Notes under the pieces: model-generated
The model's input: the letters and a program-made list of their open reading frames with translations, nothing else
What the model was told of the DNA's origin: nothing
Databases searched by the model: none
In this document: one piece after another, positions 8,984 through 39,040 of the stretch
How positions within the stretch are numbered: the stretch's first letter is position 1
How the letters are laid out: every line of letters starts with the position of its first letter
Program-made: the position numbers and the translations under genes
NCBI RefSeq assembly: GCF_023276435.1
Contig: NZ_JALLPO010000008.1
Coordinates: forward strand, 1-64,000
Length of the DNA stretch: 64,000 nucleotides
Reading direction: 5' to 3'
Source: Sphaerisporangium perillae
GTDB lineage: Bacteria > Actinomycetota > Actinomycetes > Streptosporangiales > Streptosporangiaceae

Positions 8984-10621
8984 ATGAATGCCACAGCCGA
9001 GATCACCGCCGGCCCGCGGGCCGGGCGGCGCGAATGGATCGGGCTAGCCGTGCTGGCCCTGCCGACCCTGCTGCTGTCGCTGGACATCAGCGTGCTCTAC
9101 CTGGCGCTTCCCCACCTGAGCACGAGCCTCGGCGCCGACTCCACCCAGCAACTGTGGATCCTGGACATCTACTCGTTCATGCTGGCCGGATTCCTGGTCA
9201 CCATGGGCACCCTCGGCGACCGGATCGGCCGCCGCAAGCTCCTGCTGGCCGGCGCGGCGGCCTTCGGCGTCGCCTCCATCCTGGCCGCGTACTCGGTCAA
9301 CCCCCAGATGCTCATCGCCTCAAGGGCCCTGCTCGGCATCGCCGGAGCCTCGTTGATGCCCTCCACGATGGCGCTGATCCGCAACATGTTCGGCGACCCC
9401 AAGCAGATGGGCGCCGCGATCGGCATCTGGTTCGCCTGCTTCATGGGCGGCATGACCGTCGGCCCGCTGGTCGGTGGCCTGCTGCTGGAGCACTTCTGGT
9501 GGGGCTCGGCCTTCCTGCTCGGCGTCCCGGTCATGGTGCTGCTGCTCATCGTCGGCCCCCGCCTGCTGCCGGAATACCGTGACCCGAACCCCGGCCGTCT
9601 CGACCTGGCCAGCGTGGCGCTGTCGCTGGCCGCGATCCTGCCCGCCATCTACGGCCTGAAGGAACTGGCCCGCACCGGCGTCCACGCCGTGCCCGTCGCC
9701 GCCCTCATCGCCGGCATCGCCGTCGGCGCCGTGTTCGTCCTGCGCCAGCGCAAGCTCGCCAGCCCGCTGCTCGACCTGCGGCTGTTCGCCAACCGCTCCT
9801 TCAGCACCGCGATGGGCGTCATGCTCATGGGCGGCATCGTCATGGCCGGCACGACCCTGCTGTCCAGCCTCTACCTGCAGACCGTCCAGGGCCTCGGCCC
9901 GATGAACTCCGGCCTGTGGCTGCTCCCGCAGAACATCGCGATGGTCGTCGGCTCCATGACCGCCCCGGCCCTGGCCCGCAGGTTCCGCCCGGCCTACGTC
10001 ATCGCCGCCGGCCTCCTGATCGCCGGCGCCGGCCTGGTCGCCCACACTCAGGTGCCGAGCGTCGACGGCCTGCCCCTGCTGGTCACCGGCCTGGTGCTGG
10101 CCTCCTTCGGCATCGCGTTCCCCATGTCGCTCACCATGAACCTGATCATGGGCTCCGTCGCCCCCGAGAAGGCCGGCTCGGCCGCCTCGATCAGCCAGAC
10201 CAGCGGCGAGTTCGGGGTCGCCATGGGCGTCGCCGCCCTCGGCAGCCTCGGCACCTTCGTCTACCGCACCCAGCTCCCCGGCGAACTGCCCGCAGGCCTC
10301 CCCGCCGACGCCGCCGACACCGCGCACCAGAGCATCACCGCCGCGCTCGGCGCGGCCCACCAGCTCACCGGCCAGTTCGCCACCGACCTGGTCGACGCCG
10401 CCCGCACCGCCTTCACCAGCGGCCTGAACGTCGTCGCCGCCGTCGGCGCGACCATCTTCATCGCCCTGGCCGTCCTCTCGGTGGCCATCCTCCGCGACAG
10501 TGGCCGGCCCACCCCGCAGGCCACGCCCGCCGGGCAGGACGGAGAAGCCGAGCAGGCCGGAGACGCCGACCTGACCGCACAGCGCGGCGCGGACGCCCCC
10601 GTCCTGGTGAGCGTCGACTGA
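8984..10621 (+). CDS. MFS transporter, DHA2 (14-TM) drug efflux family
   Basis: 545 residues with about 14 membrane helices. The N-terminal SLDISVLYLALPHLS is the DHA2-specific motif, MGTLGDRIGRRKLLL is MFS motif A, and SRALLGIAGASLMPSTMALI is motif C-like. The family exports cationic drugs and dyes, as QacA and LfrA do. ATG 8984 has AAGGA upstream. A hydrophilic Ala/Asp-rich tail of about 45 residues follows the last helix. No regulator is adjacent; the upstream inverted repeat may bind a distant one. Confidence 0.93.
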   Translation: MNATAEITAGPRAGRREWIGLAVLALPTLLLSLDISVLYLALPHLSTSLGADSTQQLWILDIYSFMLAGFLVTMGTLGDRIGRRKLLLAGAAAFGVASILAAYSVNPQMLIASRALLGIAGASLMPSTMALIRNMFGDPKQMGAAIGIWFACFMGGMTVGPLVGGLLLEHFWWGSAFLLGVPVMVLLLIVGPRLLPEYRDPNPGRLDLASVALSLAAILPAIYGLKELARTGVHAVPVAALIAGIAVGAVFVLRQRKLASPLLDLRLFANRSFSTAMGVMLMGGIVMAGTTLLSSLYLQTVQGLGPMNSGLWLLPQNIAMVVGSMTAPALARRFRPAYVIAAGLLIAGAGLVAHTQVPSVDGLPLLVTGLVLASFGIAFPMSLTMNLIMGSVAPEKAGSAASISQTSGEFGVAMGVAALGSLGTFVYRTQLPGELPAGLPADAADTAHQSITAALGAAHQLTGQFATDLVDAARTAFTSGLNVVAAVGATIFIALAVLSVAILRDSGRPTPQATPAGQDGEAEQAGDADLTAQRGADAPVLVSVD

Positions 10622-30328: not shown

Positions 30329-31083
30329 TCAGTTACAAGATGCGTTAAGTGACGTTTGTCGCGTGGAGGGGGATGAGGTGGTGGCCGACGACGCGGAGGA
30401 ACGCGAGCCCTGGTGGTGGGACCCTTCTCGCTCGTCATCGGCTTGGCCGTGCTTCGGCGCGCCGGTCGCCTCCGCCACCTTCTCCCTGATCAGCCGCCAG
30501 TCCGGGGCGGTGGTGTCGATGAGCGGCGGGACGAACTGGACGCTTTCTAGGCGGGCGTCCTTTATCTTCCTGGAAACGGAGATGAATGCTGGAAGCGATT
30601 CTTGGGGGATATCAGTGGATATGTAGTGCTTTGCCGCATCGGCGACCTGTTCGAAGCTCCTGAGCACCGTCATCGGGTCGGCCTGCTTGGCGACCGCGTC
30701 GAGCAGGCATTTCTGCCGGCCCATGCGCACATAGTCGTCACCGTCGGACCGGGAGCGGCCGAACCAGAGCGCCTCCGCGCCGCTCAGCCTCCGGGTGCCC
30801 GCCCGCAGGACACCGCCGCGCAGGCCGTACGGGATGTCCTGCTTGATGGTGACCGTGACCCCGCCCGTCGCGTCGATGATCCGCGCGAAGCCCCTCATGT
30901 CGGCCATCACGTAGTAGTCGATCGGGATGCCGAGGATGCCGCCGGCAGGGCGTACACCCACATCAGCGCGAGTCCGGTGGCCCGCCGTCCGGCACGGAGG
31001 TGGGCGAGCCCCCACACCAGGGCGGACCCGAGGGTGAACCACAGGGCCCCGCCCGGCCGCACGGGTCTCGGTCCGGCTCTCAT
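30329..31083 (-). pseudogene. LytR-CpsA-Psr (LCP) family gene, internally deleted and frameshifted
   Basis: From ATG 31083 about 46 codons read an LCP-type N-terminus with hydrophobic segments (ALWFTLGSALVWGLAHLRAG). At about 30940 this frame turns into unrelated sequence and stops, while the next frame picks up the C-terminal half of an LCP domain, GGILGIPIDYYVMADMRGF through ALWFGRSRSDGDDYVRMGRQ. The first half of the catalytic domain, with its Asp and Arg ligands, is missing, so a deletion and a +1 shift have destroyed the gene. An intact paralogue is at 43506-44942. The downstream limit is approximate. Confidence 0.75.
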
Positions 31084-31252
31084 CGGCACCACGCCCCCGA
31101 ACTGTCGCCGTACCAGCTGATAACAGATTAGTAACGACGCGCGTGGGCGTGTTCCCCCGGGGCCGCGACACACCGGGGACGCAGCCGGCGACGGACGGCC
31201 CGCGGGCCGCCGGGAGGCCGTGCTCGGCCGCCGGCACGCGGGCCGGGCGAGG

Positions 31253-32428
31253 TCACCAGGTGACGGGGACCTCGAGGAAGCCGCCGGCCAGGCGGCCGGT
31301 CCGGACGGGCAGCGCCTCCGGGGCCACCGTCAGCTCCATCTTCGGGAACCTCTGGAACAGGGTGCCGAAGACCTCCCGCAGTTCGACGCGGGCGAGGTTC
31401 GCCCCGACGCAGTGGTGCTGGGCGTACCCGAAGGCGACATGGGGATCGGCGTTGTCGCGGTGCATGTCGAACACGTCCGGCTCGGGGAAGACGCTCTCGT
31501 CGCGGTTCGCCGCCGCGGGCACGATGACCACCGCCTCGCCGGCCCGGATCGTCACGTCGCCGACCTCGATGTCGCTCTTGGCGTACCGGACCAGGCCGTG
31601 GTCGGACGGCGAGGCCATGCGCAGGATCTCCTCCACCACGCCCGGCGCGAGGGATGGGTCCGCCGCCAGCGCGTCGCGCAGCGCGAGGTCGCGGAGCAGG
31701 AACACGACGCCGTAGTCGATGCGGTTGACCGTGGTCTCGTGCCCGGCGAACAGCAGGCCCGCCCCGAGCCGGGCGATCTCCGAGTCGTCCGCGTCCATGT
31801 GCGCGAGGTCGGAGAGCACATCCTCGGCCGGCCGGCTGCGCTTGCGGCGCACCAGCTCGAGGATGTAGCCGCTGAGCTCCTCCATCGCCGTCATCGACGC
31901 CGCCATGTCCGTCGTGCGTGACATGCCGTCCGACAGCCTGCGGAAGTGGTGGCGGTCCTCGAACGGCACGCCGAGCAGCTCGCAGATGACCAGCACGGGA
32001 AGCGGGAAGGAGAAGTGCTCGTGCAGGTCGACCGGCGGGGTCTTCCCGGCCATCTCGTCGAGGAGGCCGCTCACCAGCTCCCGCACGTGATCTGCCAGGG
32101 CGTTCATCCGGCGGGCGGAGAAAGCGGGCGCGAGGAGCTTGCGCATCCTCTGGTGCTGGTCCTTCTCGGTCGCGTAGTCGCCCATCGGGCCGCCGAGGAG
32201 CACCGAGCCGGACACCCGCGGCGCCGAGGCGGGGTCGGGGTGCGAGCGGCCGAGTCGGTCGTCGGCGAACATCCGCCGGACCTCCTCATAGCCGGTGACC
32301 AGCCATGCCTCGTCGCCGGCCGGGGTGCGTACCCGCGTGATGGGCGCATTCCGGCGAAGCTCGCGGTACTCCGGCGGCACGTCGAGGCTGTGATGTCGCG
32401 GAAACGGCATCTGGGGGAGATCGGACAC
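31253..32428 (-). CDS. Cytochrome P450
   Basis: 391 residues. I-helix AGHETT, K-helix EEILR and the heme loop HVAFGYAQHHCVGANLAR with the ligand Cys are present. The heme loop has Ala where most P450s have the second Gly (FGxGxHxC), an unusual but tolerated change. GTG 32428 has AGAGGGG upstream. It lies 139 nt after the reductase gene of the ketosynthase operon on the same strand, so it may tailor the same product or be transcribed alone; TGTCGCGACA is a perfect palindrome at 32526-32535 in the gap. Confidence 0.92.
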   Translation of the reverse strand: MSDLPQMPFPRHHSLDVPPEYRELRRNAPITRVRTPAGDEAWLVTGYEEVRRMFADDRLGRSHPDPASAPRVSGSVLLGGPMGDYATEKDQHQRMRKLLAPAFSARRMNALADHVRELVSGLLDEMAGKTPPVDLHEHFSFPLPVLVICELLGVPFEDRHHFRRLSDGMSRTTDMAASMTAMEELSGYILELVRRKRSRPAEDVLSDLAHMDADDSEIARLGAGLLFAGHETTVNRIDYGVVFLLRDLALRDALAADPSLAPGVVEEILRMASPSDHGLVRYAKSDIEVGDVTIRAGEAVVIVPAAANRDESVFPEPDVFDMHRDNADPHVAFGYAQHHCVGANLARVELREVFGTLFQRFPKMELTVAPEALPVRTGRLAGGFLEVPVTW

Positions 32429-32567
32429 GATGGTCGCCCCTCTCGTCGGTTCGCATCCCCATTGCGAACGGTCACCTCGACCGTCGCATCCGGGCCGCGT
32501 TCCCGCAATGCCCATTGTCAAGACTTGTCGCGACAGATAGTGACTCTGCGGAGTAGACGAGGGAGGG

Positions 32568-33497
32568 TCACCAGGCCGACGCCCCGCGGAAGGACGTCGG
32601 CAAAGGATGGTAGCCAAGGCGTTCCCGCGCCGCGGTGATGTCAAGCGTGCGCTCCACGGCGAGATGACCGACCGCGTACCGGGTGAGACGCGGCGGGCGA
32701 GGCCGTCCGGACGCGCGATAGGCCGCCTCGGCGATGCCCGCCAGCGGCCCCACCAGCGCGGCGGGCAAGTAGTACGGCCGCGCGTCGATCCCCCTCTCCG
32801 CGAGGATCGCGCGGAGCGCGTCGTCCAGGACGATCGGTTCGGCGTCCGTCACGTTGAACACGCCCGTCGCCATCGGGCCCGCCGCGGCCAGCAGGCAGGC
32901 CTGTGCCAGGTTGCCGACGGAGGTCAGGCTGATCCGCTGACGTCCGTCGCCGACGGCGTACAGGCGCCGCCCTCGCACCGCGCCGAGAACCCTGGGCAGC
33001 AGCGTCGGGTCCCCTTCGCCGTACACGGCGTGCGGCCGCAGGATCACCGCCGTGTCCCTGACCACGAGCTCGGCCAGCGCCTTCGACTCGCCGTAGGCGT
33101 TGACGTACCGCCCGGCCCGGTACTCGTGCTCGCGCGCCATCACGGTCGGGCGGAACGGGTCGTACACGCTCGCGGTGCTGACGTGGACGAACCGGGCGGC
33201 GGGGAAGGCCCGCCGCACCTGTGCCGTGCCGCCCACGTTGACCTCGATGATCTCCCGTTTCGGCCCCCAGTCGGTCACGCTGCCCGCGCAGTGCACCACC
33301 GCGTCCACCTCGGGCAGGTCACCCGGCACCGGCCCGGTGATGTCCCACGAGCGGTACGACACGGCGCCGCCGTCGCGAGCGGCGAGGGCCGTTGCCGGCC
33401 GGCGGCCGAAGGCGTGGACCTCCCAGCCCTGTGCCGCCGCGGCCCGGCAGACCGCGCCGCCGACGAACCCCGACGCTCCCGTCACCGCCACTCTCAC
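32568..33497 (-). CDS. NAD(P)-dependent 3beta-HSD/epimerase-type reductase, OleD-like
   Basis: 309 residues of an extended SDR. TGASGFVGGAV binds NAD(P); VSTASVY and YGESK hold the catalytic Ser, Tyr and Lys; ILRPHAVYGEGDPTLLPRVL is the pattern of OleD and 3beta-hydroxysteroid dehydrogenases. By analogy with OleD it would reduce a 2-alkyl-3-keto acid to the 3-hydroxy acid. It follows the ligase gene by 43 nt in a five-gene run that starts at 38013. Confidence 0.88.
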   Translation of the reverse strand: MRVAVTGASGFVGGAVCRAAAAQGWEVHAFGRRPATALAARDGGAVSYRSWDITGPVPGDLPEVDAVVHCAGSVTDWGPKREIIEVNVGGTAQVRRAFPAARFVHVSTASVYDPFRPTVMAREHEYRAGRYVNAYGESKALAELVVRDTAVILRPHAVYGEGDPTLLPRVLGAVRGRRLYAVGDGRQRISLTSVGNLAQACLLAAAGPMATGVFNVTDAEPIVLDDALRAILAERGIDARPYYLPAALVGPLAGIAEAAYRASGRPRPPRLTRYAVGHLAVERTLDITAARERLGYHPLPTSFRGASAW

Positions 33498-33540
33498 CGC
33501 GCCACCGCCGTCTCGACACGCCCCATCGCCGCTCCCGGAT

Positions 33541-35097
33541 TCACTTCGGCGTACGGGCGACCAGGTCGCGGAGCAGCGCGCGGTCGAGTTTGCCGGTGCG
33601 CCCGCCGCGCGGGAAGCCGTCGAGGACCTCGATCCGGTCGGGTAGCGCGCCCGCGTCGACGATCTCCGGAAGGGCCTTGCGCAGCCGTGCCTGGTCGAAG
33701 CCCTCGTCGGCGATCACGGCCAGTACGACCTCCTCGTCGTCGGTCTCCGGATCGGGGACGCCGATGATCGCGGCCTCCGCCACGCCGGGGAGCGCCGCCA
33801 CCGCCGGCTCGTACAGACCTGGATAGATGTTCACCCCGTCCCTGAGGATCATGTCCTTCTTGCGGCCCAGGAGGACGAGCCGCCCGTCCTCGTCCACGCG
33901 GGCCAGGTCGCCCGTCGCCACCTCGGCCAGCGGCGGCTCGCCGAGGTATCCCTGGGCGAGCTGGGGTCCCGAGACGAACAGCTCGCCGTCGTCGCCGATG
34001 CGGACCTCGACGCCGGGCAGCGGCGTGCCGAGCAGGTCGCCTTCCTGGACGGCGAGCTTGTCCTCCGCCGAGGCGATCGCGATCGGCAGCGCCTCGGTCA
34101 TGGCGTACACCGACCAGATCCCGGCGTGCGGGGCGGCGGCGCGGGCGCGCCGGAGCACGGCGGGCGGCGACGGAGCCGTGCCGAGGAGCAGGCAGCGCAG
34201 CGTCTCGGGCAGCGCGGGGCTCTCCCGGAGGATCCTGTCCAGCCGTACGGGCACGCAGAACGCGTGGGTGGCCCGGCGCTCGGCCAGCTCTTCGGCGAAG
34301 GGCCGCGAGCCGGGCAGCGACCAGGTGGCCCCCGCCATCAGCGCCGGCAGGCCCAGCATGAGCTGGTCGGTGTGCACGACGTCGCCGGGGGCCAGCGGGA
34401 CCGCCGCGCGGAAGAGCGCCGACCCCTCCGCGAGCGACCCCCTGGTGTGCACGACTCCGCGTGGCCGTCCCGTCGTCCCGGACGTGAACGCGACGACCGC
34501 GGGCTGGTCGCGCTCGGCCCTCGTGCCCGGCTGAGACGGCTGTCCGGCCGTGCCGGGGTGCCCGGCCCCTCCGGCAGCCTTTCCCGCTCCGGGCAGGCGG
34601 GAGGGGCCGCGGCGCTCCAGGCCGGGCACGCGTACGGCGCCGCGGGGGACGCCGGGAAGCCACGGGCCTGAGTACAGGTGGCGCACCGGCCGGCCCGGGA
34701 CGGGGGCGCGCAGATGCGGGAGGGTCAGCCCGCGACGCCGGGCGAGGGCGCGCAGCGGCCCGCTCAACGCGTAGACGAGGGAATCGGCGACCACCCAGGC
34801 CGGCCGGGTCAGGGCGAGCCGCCCGGCCACCACGTCGGGGGCCAGGCCGGGGTCGGCGAGGACGAGCATCCCTCCGGCGGCCACCGCGCCCAGGGCGAGC
34901 GTCACGGCGTCCGGACCTGGGCGTACGGCGAACAGCACGCCGTCGCCCGGCCGTAGCCCGGTCATGGCCGCGGCGACGGCGCCGACCCGGCGGGCCAGCT
35001 CACCGTAGGACAGCCTCCGGCCGCGCCCGTCGATGATCGCGACGCTGTCCGGCGCGCGCCCGGCGGCGTCGAGCACGCCGGCGATCACGTCGCTCAT
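33541..35097 (-). CDS. Adenylate-forming (ANL) enzyme, OleC/beta-lactone-synthetase-like
   Basis: 518 residues. ATP loop AFTSGTTGRPRGVVHTRGS, adenine motif WSVYAMTEALPIAIAS, TGDLARVDEDGRLVLLGRKK and the catalytic Lys in GGRTGKLDR are intact. The TEALP(I/V)A run is, as I recall, a feature of OleC-type enzymes, which convert a 3-hydroxy acid to a cis-beta-lactone with ATP. A low-complexity Gly/Pro/Arg stretch interrupts the region before the ATP loop. Its ATG overlaps the P450 stop by four bases (ATGA), implying coupled translation. Confidence 0.85.
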   Translation of the reverse strand: MSDVIAGVLDAAGRAPDSVAIIDGRGRRLSYGELARRVGAVAAAMTGLRPGDGVLFAVRPGPDAVTLALGAVAAGGMLVLADPGLAPDVVAGRLALTRPAWVVADSLVYALSGPLRALARRRGLTLPHLRAPVPGRPVRHLYSGPWLPGVPRGAVRVPGLERRGPSRLPGAGKAAGGAGHPGTAGQPSQPGTRAERDQPAVVAFTSGTTGRPRGVVHTRGSLAEGSALFRAAVPLAPGDVVHTDQLMLGLPALMAGATWSLPGSRPFAEELAERRATHAFCVPVRLDRILRESPALPETLRCLLLGTAPSPPAVLRRARAAAPHAGIWSVYAMTEALPIAIASAEDKLAVQEGDLLGTPLPGVEVRIGDDGELFVSGPQLAQGYLGEPPLAEVATGDLARVDEDGRLVLLGRKKDMILRDGVNIYPGLYEPAVAALPGVAEAAIIGVPDPETDDEEVVLAVIADEGFDQARLRKALPEIVDAGALPDRIEVLDGFPRGGRTGKLDRALLRDLVARTPK

Positions 35098-36290
35098 CCG
35101 GTGCCCGTCCTCTCCGGGCCGGCGGTTATCCACAGATGTGCATAAGTGGGGATCAGCACTCCTCGTGCGGCTCGCCGCCGCACCACGCGCACGTCGTGGG
35201 ACAGCACCACCGCGGCCACGGCGCGGATCTCGGCCAGCGCCAGCGGGTATCCGACGCAGAAGTGCGGGCCGGCCCCGAACCAGATCCTCCGCAGCTCCGG
35301 AGGGTGCCGTGTCGCCAGGTCGAACGGGCCGTAGGCGCGGGCACAGTTGTGGGTCACGATCAGCACCCGGTCGCCGGGCCGTACGGGAACGCGGCCGACG
35401 CGGGCCGGGACGGCGACCGACCGCAGCATCACCGGTGTCGGGGTGGTGACCCGCATCGCCTCCTCGATCGCCCGGTCCAGGTCGCCGGGCCCGTCCAGCC
35501 GGGTTCCGGTGTCGTGCAACAGCGCGATGAGCCGCGGGACGAAGGTGGCGACCGTCTCGGTGCCGGTGAGGAAGAACGCGCCCGCCGCCCCGCGCGCCTC
35601 GGCGGCGGACAGGCCGAGGGAACGCATGCGTCCCATGACCGTCGTCTCCTCGCCACGCTCGTACGCGGCCTCGGCGATGTCGCCGATCCGGTCCAGCACC
35701 TGGCGGGCGGCGGCGATCTGCCGTTCGGAAAGCCCGCGCGAGCGCAGCGACACCATGGACACGATGCGCTCCCCGTCGGCGAACAGGGACCGCGCGTCGT
35801 CCGGCGAGACCTCTCCCATGCCGATCAACCGGCAGATGACCGCCCCGGCCATCAGCCGCATCTCGTCGACCAGGTCGACCGTCTCGCCGCCCGCCAGCCG
35901 CGCCGACAGATCCCGGAGCGGGACCTCCAGCACCTCGGCCACGAGCGAGGCGACCTGCGCCGGGGCGAACAGCGGGGCGAGCTTGCGGCGCAGCGCCGTG
36001 TGCGCGTCCCCTTCCATGTTGAGCAGCACGGACGGGCCGAGCACGGGCGTCCACAGGTCACCGGGGGAGCCGGGTCCGTCCTTGCGGAACCGCTCGTCCA
36101 TGAGGACGGCGCGCGCGGTGGCGGCGTCGTTGACGACGACGCCGATCCCCGGCACCCGCACCACCGGGCCGAGCCGGGCGAGCAGCCGCATCAGCGGGTA
36201 CACGAGGGGGTGGGCGGCCAGGTACAGGCGCGTCTCGTGGCCCGGGACCCGCCGGGCCGGCCGGGACGGGACGGTCAGGTGAGGGCTCAC
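35094..36290 (-). CDS. Cytochrome P450
   Basis: 398 residues. The I-helix reads FFLTGTETVATF, the K-helix EEAMR, and the heme loop IWFGAGPHFCVGYPLALAE is canonical. It begins with a GTG that overlaps the glycosyltransferase stop (GTGA) and ends in an ATGA overlap with the ligase, so it is a core member of the operon and probably oxidises the acyl chain or the lactone product. Redox partners are not encoded nearby. Confidence 0.92.
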   Translation of the reverse strand: MSPHLTVPSRPARRVPGHETRLYLAAHPLVYPLMRLLARLGPVVRVPGIGVVVNDAATARAVLMDERFRKDGPGSPGDLWTPVLGPSVLLNMEGDAHTALRRKLAPLFAPAQVASLVAEVLEVPLRDLSARLAGGETVDLVDEMRLMAGAVICRLIGMGEVSPDDARSLFADGERIVSMVSLRSRGLSERQIAAARQVLDRIGDIAEAAYERGEETTVMGRMRSLGLSAAEARGAAGAFFLTGTETVATFVPRLIALLHDTGTRLDGPGDLDRAIEEAMRVTTPTPVMLRSVAVPARVGRVPVRPGDRVLIVTHNCARAYGPFDLATRHPPELRRIWFGAGPHFCVGYPLALAEIRAVAAVVLSHDVRVVRRRAARGVLIPTYAHLWITAGPERTGTG

Positions 36291-37036
36291 CGGACGTCGA
36301 CGACGTCGGGGCGGTAGTGGTGGTCGGCGTACCAGGCCAGCGTGCCGGCCAGGCCGTACGCGCGCAGCCGCCGGACCGACCCGTACACGACCACGTCGCG
36401 GCGCGAGGCGTACGCGCCGGTGAGCCTGCGCACCCGGTTGACCAGGGCGCGGTCCTCGTGGACCTCCTCGATCGCCGTGCGCGGGAAGCCGCCCGAGCGC
36501 TCGTAGAGCGCGGCCGTGATGGCCACCGTGGCGCCCGGCATCATGACGTAGGGCCCGAGATAGGCCGCGTCGCGGTTGCCCGGCCGGAAGCGTCCGAACG
36601 CGGCGGCCACGCTCACCACGAACGGGATGAAGCGCCGCTCCCAGAACTTGAGCGGGAACTCGTCCGTGCGCGGCCTGAGCTTGCCGCCGACCATCTCCAG
36701 CCCGTCGCCGAAGCCCCGCCTGATCGCCCGCACCCAGTCGTGGCGCGGCACGCAGTCGGCGTCGGTCCTGGCGAGGTGGGTGGCCCCCTGGGCGATGGCG
36801 TGCCGCATCCCGGTGTCGGAGGCGGCGCCGGTGCCCTTGCGCGCCTCCTGGACGACCTCGATCCTCATCGAGGACGTGGCGGCGTAGGCCCTCACCACCT
36901 CGGCGGTTCCGTCCGTGCTCATGTTGTCGACGACGACCAGCGTGAAGGCCTGGTCGTCCTGGGCCTCCAGGCCGTGCAGGGTCGCCTCGATGCCCATCGC
37001 CTCGTTGTACGCGGGGACGATCACCCAGAGGTCCAT
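36287..37036 (-). CDS. Family 2 glycosyltransferase
   Basis: 249 residues of a GT-A fold: MDLWVIVPAYNEAMGIEATL at the start, VVVDNMSTDGTAEVV, and the DADCVPR metal-binding element. GGKLRPRTDEFPLKFWERRF and a Trp/Tyr-rich end suggest a membrane-associated enzyme. It would add a sugar, possibly to the product of this operon. ATG 37036 starts the fold; GTG 37057 and ATG 37054, which overlap the ketosynthase stop, are alternatives and would couple translation. Confidence 0.88.
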   Translation of the reverse strand: MDLWVIVPAYNEAMGIEATLHGLEAQDDQAFTLVVVDNMSTDGTAEVVRAYAATSSMRIEVVQEARKGTGAASDTGMRHAIAQGATHLARTDADCVPRHDWVRAIRRGFGDGLEMVGGKLRPRTDEFPLKFWERRFIPFVVSVAAAFGRFRPGNRDAAYLGPYVMMPGATVAITAALYERSGGFPRTAIEEVHEDRALVNRVRRLTGAYASRRDVVVYGSVRRLRAYGLAGTLAWYADHHYRPDVVDVR

Positions 37037-37053
37037 GGAGTTCTCACCGTCCA

Positions 37054-38013
37054 TCACAGGTCCGCGAAGAGCACGCCGAGGCTGATGCCGCCGCCGAGGC
37101 CGAGCAGCGCGACCCGGTCACCGGGGCGGGCGCCGCCGGCGGCGAGCTGGAGCGGCAGGGTGGCCGAGGCGCAGTTGCCGTGCTCGGGCAGCGTGACGAC
37201 CAGCCGGTCCTCGGGGATGCCGAGTGCCTGGGTGAGGGCCGCGAGGTAGGGCAGCGCCACCTGGTGCACGGCTACGATCGAGAAGTCGTCCCAGGTCAGG
37301 CCGGTGCGCTTGAGCGCGTCGAGGAAGATGTCCGGGCCGATCAGCTCGAACGCCTCCTTCAGCCGCCGACCGTCGCCCCGGAAGTAGGAGTATTCGGGGT
37401 CGCGCGGGTGGGCGGAGCCGCCGCCGGGGAGCGTGCCGATCGCCCAGGCGGTGGAGTCCGCCGAGAAGTCGCGGTAGAAGATGCCGCGGTGCGGGTCGGC
37501 GGTGACCAGTACCGCCGCGCCCGCGTCCGACAGTGTGTACCCGGCGAAGGCGTCCACGAACTGCGCCCGGTCGGCGACCCGCCAGCGCACGGCGCGGGAC
37601 GGCATCTCGCCCGTGCAGACGAGCACCTTGCGGTGGGCGCCGGTGCGGATCAGCGCGTCGGCGACCTGCAGCCCGTTGAGCAGGCTGTTGCAGGCGTTCT
37701 TGACGTCGAACACCGGGCACGACATCCCGAGCTTGGCGGCGACGATGTGCGCGGTCGCCGGCTCCACCATGTCCTGCGAGGCCGACGCGAAGATCAGCAG
37801 GTCGGCGTCGGCGTGGTCGAGCCGCCGCGCCGCCGCCACCGCTAGGTCGGACGCCTGCTGGTCGCCGGCCGCCACGTGCCGTCGCGCGATCCCGGTCATG
37901 CGCTGGATGATGCCGCGGGGAGGGACGTATCCCTCGATCCGCGTTTCCACGTCGTCGCTGGTCAGAACGCATTCGGGCAGATACGTCGCGACGCCCGATA
38001 TACGGGCCTTCAT
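37054..38013 (-). CDS. 3-oxoacyl-ACP synthase III family ketosynthase, OleA-like
   Basis: 319 residues of a FabH/OleA thiolase fold. Catalytic Cys108 (FDVKNACNSLLNGLQVA), His250 (VAVHQVALPYLAAL) and Asn280 (LPEHGNCASATLPLQL) are present, and GDRVALLGLGGGISL closes the fold. EHGN and ALLG-G-G patterns match OleA better than housekeeping FabH. It would condense two acyl-CoAs or extend one. ATG 38013 has a GGAGGGG site and is the first gene of the operon glycosyltransferase, P450, ligase, reductase. Confidence 0.88.
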   Translation of the reverse strand: MKARISGVATYLPECVLTSDDVETRIEGYVPPRGIIQRMTGIARRHVAAGDQQASDLAVAAARRLDHADADLLIFASASQDMVEPATAHIVAAKLGMSCPVFDVKNACNSLLNGLQVADALIRTGAHRKVLVCTGEMPSRAVRWRVADRAQFVDAFAGYTLSDAGAAVLVTADPHRGIFYRDFSADSTAWAIGTLPGGGSAHPRDPEYSYFRGDGRRLKEAFELIGPDIFLDALKRTGLTWDDFSIVAVHQVALPYLAALTQALGIPEDRLVVTLPEHGNCASATLPLQLAAGGARPGDRVALLGLGGGISLGVLFADL

Positions 38014-38101: not shown

Positions 38102-38929
38102 CTAGGCGGCCGGAATGAGGCCGGTGCCGACCGCCGCGATGACCACGGCGCCGAGGATCACCCGGTACACGATGAACGGCGTGAAGCGGTGCGTGCTGAT
38201 GTACCGCAAGAACCAGGCGATCGCGGCGTAGCCGACGGCGAACGACACCAGGGTGGCGAGGATCGTGGGCCCCCAGGCCGGCGCCTGCCCCTCACCGATC
38301 TTGAACAGCTCCAGGACGCCCGACATGAGCACGGCCGGGATCGCGAGCAGGAACGAGTACTCCGCCGCCTCCTCGCGCCGGTAACCGAGGAGCAGGCCCG
38401 CGCCCGTCGTACCGCCGGAGCGGGAGACGCCCGGGATCAGCGCCAGCGACTGGGCCAGGCCGTACGTCAGGGCGTGCGGCAGGTTGAGGTTCTTGTCCAG
38501 GGTCAGCTCGTTGCGCGCCATCCGGTCGGCGACGGCCAGGAGCAGGCCGAAGACGATCAGGCACGCGCCCACCAGGCGCAGGTCGCGCAACGTGGTCTCG
38601 ATCGACTCCTTGAACGCCAGGCCGAGCACGCCGATCGGGACGCTGCCCGCGATGACGTACCAGCCCATGCGCGCCGCGGAGTCCTGCCGCAGATCAGGGG
38701 TCCACAGGGCGCGCGTCCAGGTGGAGAGGATCTCCCAGATGCGCTTGCGGAAGTAGATGAGCACGGCCGTCTCCGTGCCGAGCTGGATCACCGCGGTGAA
38801 GGCGGCTCCCGGGTCCTGCCAGCCGAAGAAGGCGGACACCACCCTGATGTGCGCGCTGGAGGAGATGGGCAGGAACTCCGTGAGCCCCTGCACCAGACCC
38901 AGCACGAGCGCCTCGAACCAGCCGATCAA
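38102..38929 (-). CDS. uppP: Undecaprenyl-diphosphatase
   Basis: About 276 residues, polytopic. The two signature motifs are QGLTEFLPISSSAH (residues 14-27) and LIPGVSRSGGTTGAGLLLG. The enzyme dephosphorylates undecaprenyl diphosphate in the membrane for reuse in wall synthesis, and high levels confer bacitracin resistance. TTG 38929 has GGAAGG at a good distance; GTG 38938 is an alternative. It lies 88 nt upstream of the ketosynthase operon on the same strand; a minisatellite fills its own upstream region. Confidence 0.95.
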   Translation of the reverse strand: MIGWFEALVLGLVQGLTEFLPISSSAHIRVVSAFFGWQDPGAAFTAVIQLGTETAVLIYFRKRIWEILSTWTRALWTPDLRQDSAARMGWYVIAGSVPIGVLGLAFKESIETTLRDLRLVGACLIVFGLLLAVADRMARNELTLDKNLNLPHALTYGLAQSLALIPGVSRSGGTTGAGLLLGYRREEAAEYSFLLAIPAVLMSGVLELFKIGEGQAPAWGPTILATLVSFAVGYAAIAWFLRYISTHRFTPFIVYRVILGAVVIAAVGTGLIPAA

Positions 38930-39040
38930 TGAACACACCTTCCGGGGGAGGACCGCGCGCGATGCCGCCGGGGGGCGTGCGGCCGCACATCAGGTGAGGC
39001 TAGCGGACCCCGCGGTCCGGGCAGATCGGCCGAACGACCG

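Follow-up and report, generated by a model that had tools for sequence, protein, structure and literature searches.

An OleB-less five-gene operon built on divergent OleA-, OleC- and OleD-like enzymes in Sphaerisporangium perillae and other actinomycetes

Within the window, the 64,000-nucleotide stretch of Sphaerisporangium perillae DNA analysed here, the genes for a ketosynthase III (KS), a family-2 glycosyltransferase (GT2), a cytochrome P450 (P450a), an adenylate-forming ligase (LIG) and an extended short-chain dehydrogenase/reductase (SDR) form one tight five-gene operon on the minus strand, from 38013 down to 32568 (Table 1). This operon probably represents a conserved, occasionally plasmid-borne, specialised-lipid type built on a divergent OleA/OleC/OleD trio, and we give an even chance to its product being a glycosylated, hydroxylated long-chain beta-lactone. 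The genome that carries it, of 9.3 Mb and 99% complete, belongs to the Sphaerisporangium group. An earlier sequence-only reading of the window had described an operon of six genes with two P450s; all six genes were found where it placed them on the minus strand, as were the overlaps among the operon genes (GTGA at KS/GT2 and GT2/P450a, ATGA at P450a/LIG) and the gap of 139 nt between SDR and a second P450, P450b. The gap between the ligase and SDR is 43 nt. The five-gene unit with P450a is borne out, but the membership of P450b is not.

Table 1. Features of the operon and its immediate neighbours in the window
Feature	Coordinates	Strand	Description
KS	37054..38013	-	ATG start; ketosynthase III (Pfam); OleA-like; Cys108/His250/Asn280, Glu84-Pro85
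GT2	36287..37057	-	Soluble family-2 glycosyltransferase (Pfam GT2); TDAD and HED motifs
P450a	35094..36290	-	Divergent cytochrome P450 (Pfam); FGAGPHFCVG heme loop, EEAMR, TGTET; conserved operon member
LIG	33541..35097	-	AMP-binding adenylate-forming enzyme (Pfam); OleC sister clade; canonical A8, no RHxxK
SDR	32568..33497	-	OleD-like extended SDR; epimerase/3beta-HSD-type (Pfam); TGASGFVGG, YGESK
Spacer upstream of P450b	32429..32567	-	Promoter-like TCTTGACA...TGCGACNGTCG block, conserved in six Sphaerisporangium-group genomes
P450b	31253..32428	-	GTG start at 32428; pentalenolactone-synthase-like P450; neighbour, outside the conserved operon
uppP (undecaprenyl-diphosphate phosphatase)	38102..38938	-	Adjoins the operon in this genus only; neighbour

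The comparison of gene order that the sequence-only reading had proposed showed that KS-GT2-P450a-LIG-SDR recurs in other genomes, mostly with 4-nt overlaps, and its repetition with these -4 overlaps in dozens of genomes cannot be ascribed to chance. Orthologous loci of this order occur in Streptosporangium, Nonomuraea, Planomonospora, Planobispora, Actinomadura, Actinocorallia, Hamadaea and Catellatospora, and the five-gene set as a whole extends over the Streptosporangiaceae, Actinomadura, the Micromonosporaceae and one Streptomyces plasmid. More distant loci show the order KS-GT2-LIG-P450-SDR; among them is the Streptomyces viridifaciens plasmid pKVP2, on which the same gene set forms a single operon. 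KS relatives at E<=1e-50 are present in 78 of the 201 sampled genomes of the order, a count that takes in both the operon family and a paralogous PKS-linked family. At one locus (L167, genome G104, about 9400-10030) the first ~149 KS residues are joined directly to the last ~48 SDR residues, and this reduced operon is a natural internal deletion. Loci of Actinomadura and of genus g20 (L245, L253, L258, L302, L303) have a second, divergently transcribed P450 beside the operon, 35-40% identical to P450a, often with thiolase and MBL-fold genes nearby.

The gene set is retained even where the operon has been broken up. The genera g20 and g36 carry KS and LIG at one site and GT2-P450a-SDR at another, and in five Nonomuraea the operon is reduced to KS-P450a-SDR. 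A search for two displaced genes, SDR and the ligase, recovered both elsewhere in the split-operon genomes (SDR at 67-70% and the ligase at 57-65% identity). The operon losses in g20 and Nonomuraea had been entertained as an argument against coupling, which is reversed by the presence of SDR and the ligase elsewhere in the genome. In the Nonomuraea loci L307-L311 the displaced ligase comes after genes for an ATP-grasp enzyme and a GNAT-type acetyltransferase, with ABC-transporter-like genes on the opposite strand. In three genomes (L083, L084, L086) GT2 and LIG are fused in a single open frame of 777-810 aa, and both domains were detected by hmmscan in the one frame tested.

The absence of OleB, asserted earlier for the window, extends to the whole 9.3 Mb genome (G000), in which the OleB of an oleABCD locus used as query found no match at E<=1e-20. 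At the same threshold no OleB-like gene was found in G098, G110 and G551, and in S. melleum the query retrieved a hydrolase that belongs to another cluster, of the PKS-OleA-C-D-B type.

The observed gene set, its co-conservation, its catalytic residues, the clade placement of its enzymes and the lack of OleB are read here in terms of an Ole-type route, whose reactions, substrates, step order and product we infer. KS would join two fatty acyl thioesters into a 2-alkyl-3-keto acid, with Cys108 becoming acylated and Glu84 of the partner subunit acting as the base, and SDR would reduce this to a 2-alkyl-3-hydroxy acid. P450a might then hydroxylate a chain and GT2 add a sugar to a hydroxyl, after which LIG would adenylate the carboxylate, and attack by the 3-hydroxyl would most likely close a beta-lactone. 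The latter may persist, there being no OleB to remove it. On sequence grounds, KS, LIG and SDR are separate clades and not OleA, OleC and OleD proper.

The OleD-like character attributed earlier to the SDR is supported: its best NCBIfam models are two OleD models (122 and 116 bits, against a cut-off of 580), and its clade (support 94) lies beside OleD and apart from GalE, RfbB and RfbD. Both the Rossmann glycine motif, TGASGFVGG, and YxxxK, as YGESK, are present. In GT2 the TDAD and HED motifs are invariant across 17 relatives. A fold search with GT2 returned mostly polysaccharide-type GT2 enzymes at a TM of about 0.57 with a model confidence of only 73, and no acceptor was inferred from it.

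The ligase bears on the nature of the product. The operon ligases were placed in a tree together with 20 OleC-type ligases and 23 further adenylate-forming enzymes from the S. perillae genome. They form a single clade (support 100), and a branch with SH-aLRT 98 separates them, together with OleC, from the 23 own-genome enzymes. Since the tree is unrooted and the three groups join at a single point, it shows only that LIG is not nested in the sampled ordinary types. A grouping with ordinary acyl-CoA ligases, which the sequence-only reading had held would speak against it, thus did not occur in this tree with the 23 own-genome enzymes. The TEALPIA run which that reading had reported is present, within VYAMTEALPIA, and TExxP at A5 is common to LIG and OleC. 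At A10, RHxxK is found in all 20 OleC-type ligases but in none of the 21 operon ligases, which read GRxxKxDR; the ordinary DM...NxY is retained at A8 in the operon ligases but in 0 of the 20 OleC-type ligases. The earlier identification as an OleC-like ligase is supported insofar as LIG is nearer to OleC than 23 other ligases of its genome are, and is weakened by the missing RHxxK and the retained ordinary A8. Given this combination of a missing RHxxK and an acyl-ligase A8, beta-lactone closure by LIG is only plausible.

These motifs favour the main rival to a beta-lactone product, a possible though tentative one, in which the OleA/OleD chemistry is the same while LIG works as a genuine acyl ligase (CoA or carrier), activating the glycosylated, hydroxylated 2-alkyl-3-hydroxy acid for transfer onto another molecule; the outcome would be a mycolate-like glycolipid and no beta-lactone. 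The GT2-LIG fusions, which couple sugar transfer with activation, and the position of the ligase behind ATP-grasp and GNAT-type acyltransferase genes in five Nonomuraea point the same way. Against it, the LIG clade neighbours OleC and is nested in no other sampled ligase type, and the five-gene set is without a dedicated acyltransferase. In a rather doubtful version of this scheme, OleA/OleD chemistry yields mycolate-like 2-alkyl-3-hydroxy acids which, once oxidised and glycosylated, are passed on by a ligase that branched from the OleC line while keeping the ability to form thioesters.

The beta-lactone reading also depends on the ketosynthase. Cys108, His250 and Asn280, the Cys-His-Asn triad of the thiolase superfamily, are present in KS as had been noted, and are invariant in the aligned family. 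Judged by sequence, the strongest OleA feature of KS is one that had been overlooked, namely Glu84-Pro85, which is invariant in 11 of 11 aligned family members. Glu84 aligns with the general base Glu117 (Glu117-Pro118) of Xanthomonas campestris OleA, in 'RDYLEPST', and its position is occupied by Phe in Escherichia coli FabH and by Asp in PqsD. The OleA of bona fide oleABCD loci has the same Glu-Pro, and among 74 OleA proteins screened previously it was present in all but two (PMC7064751). In the unrooted KS tree, from which one own-genome row in a wrong reading frame (L196) was set aside, KS forms its own clade apart from bona fide OleA, with both OleA and FabH across a 97/98 branch. Single-sequence HMM and fold scores were slightly better against FabH than against OleA, and a fold search tried as a discriminator did not separate the two, FabH ranking slightly ahead. 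'OleA-like' is therefore a fair term for KS, in view of its separate clade and this ranking; to the earlier claim of an OleA-like ketosynthase the Glu-Pro pair gives support, but a grouping with OleA over FabH appears neither in the tree nor in the fold comparison.

An alternative that we regard as unlikely takes KS to be FabH/PqsD-like, condensing a ligase-activated acid with malonyl or another extender, in which case the Ole analogy fails. It draws on the tree and structure comparison, which put KS no nearer to OleA than to FabH, and on FabH proteins being the top matches in a PDB sequence search. Against it stand Glu84-Pro85, which all the aligned members carry at the place of the OleA general base, occupied by Phe in E. 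coli FabH, and the ligase and SDR, which point independently to OleC and OleD.

A role in the pathway for P450b and uppP, as a second tailoring oxidation and self-resistance, is very unlikely, because orthologs of the two adjoin the operon within the Sphaerisporangium group alone and lie beside it in none of the other genera, and because P450b has its own conserved upstream block and in S. melleum lies about 3 kb from the operon with the TCTTGACA...TGCGACNGTCG block still upstream of it. Both were accordingly rejected as cluster members, and of the two earlier suggestions for uppP, linked resistance or mere neighbour, that of a genus-level neighbour holds. P450b scores 411 bits with the pentalenolactone-synthase NCBIfam model (cut-off 700). 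Just upstream of it, within 32429-32567, is a palindrome, TTCGCA-ATGGGGA-TGCGAA, which has a similar counterpart in S. melleum and is absent from the other four genomes aligned. An LCP-family gene conserved downstream of the operon in relatives was likewise rejected as a member; in the window (30329-31237) it is a fragment retaining only the part that matches residues about 201-409 of relatives 327-460 aa long, most of them over 400.

Both the architecture and the product guess had already appeared in print in 2020, for Actinoplanes atraurantiacus, so the window operon is a member of that type and not a new idea. In that organism OleA, a glycosyltransferase, OleC, a P450 and OleD occur together and OleB is absent from the genome, and a hydroxylated, glycosylated beta-lactone was proposed as the product (Smith et al. 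2020, PMC7064751). Its KS homologue was active on p-nitrophenyl hexanoate, but no reaction with the tested acyl-CoAs was seen for the purified enzyme, which precipitated and was obtained in small amount (PMC7064751). The window operon fits this definition, with the same five functions, no OleB and the same product proposal. The published list places OleC before the P450, as in the Streptomyces loci studied here, whereas in the window operon P450a precedes LIG. Based on gene content and the Micromonosporaceae loci L269, L270, L272 and L274, the two regions would be orthologous.

The oleABCD olefin pathway of Xanthomonas and Micrococcales has a homologous ketosynthase, ligase and SDR, with the OleA Glu-Pro signature in common; the window operon differs from it in lacking OleB, in its additional GT2 and P450 and in the separate clade formed by each homologue. 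The lipstatin (lst) and nocardiolactone (nlt) clusters use two OleA homologues. Compared by description, the window operon has one KS, plus GT2 and P450. Both of these beta-lactone clusters have oleACD without oleB (PMC7064751). One locus in our set (L156) is possibly nlt-like. A second cluster family (L087, L099, L164, L162, L163, L101, L313) has a type I PKS beside OleA-OleC-OleD-OleB-like genes, the PKS of L164 having the domains KS-AT-DH-MT-ER-KR-ACP; these clusters perhaps make polyketide-primed olefins. The KS of L087, L099 and L164 are 44-50% identical to that of the window, but these clusters differ in having a PKS, a hydrolase resembling OleB and a ligase with RHxxK, and in lacking both GT2 and P450. 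A close match to a characterised cluster, which had also been named as telling against the earlier reading, was not found, and no characterised product of the five-gene cluster turned up in the literature searched.

What the present analysis adds to the A. atraurantiacus type is its breadth, its exact boundaries, the GT2-ligase fusion, the retention of genes in split operons and the conflict in the ligase motifs. The gene set has been kept across many actinomycete genera, even after breakup of the operon, and its five genes give a defined target in the search for a glycosylated beta-lactone or a branched glycolipid that would be new. If the mycolate-like reading were true, actinomycetes without mycolic acids would possess a glycolipid pathway that is widespread and has gone unrecognised. 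In either case, LIG provides a natural test of the distinction between beta-lactone synthetases and ordinary acyl ligases.
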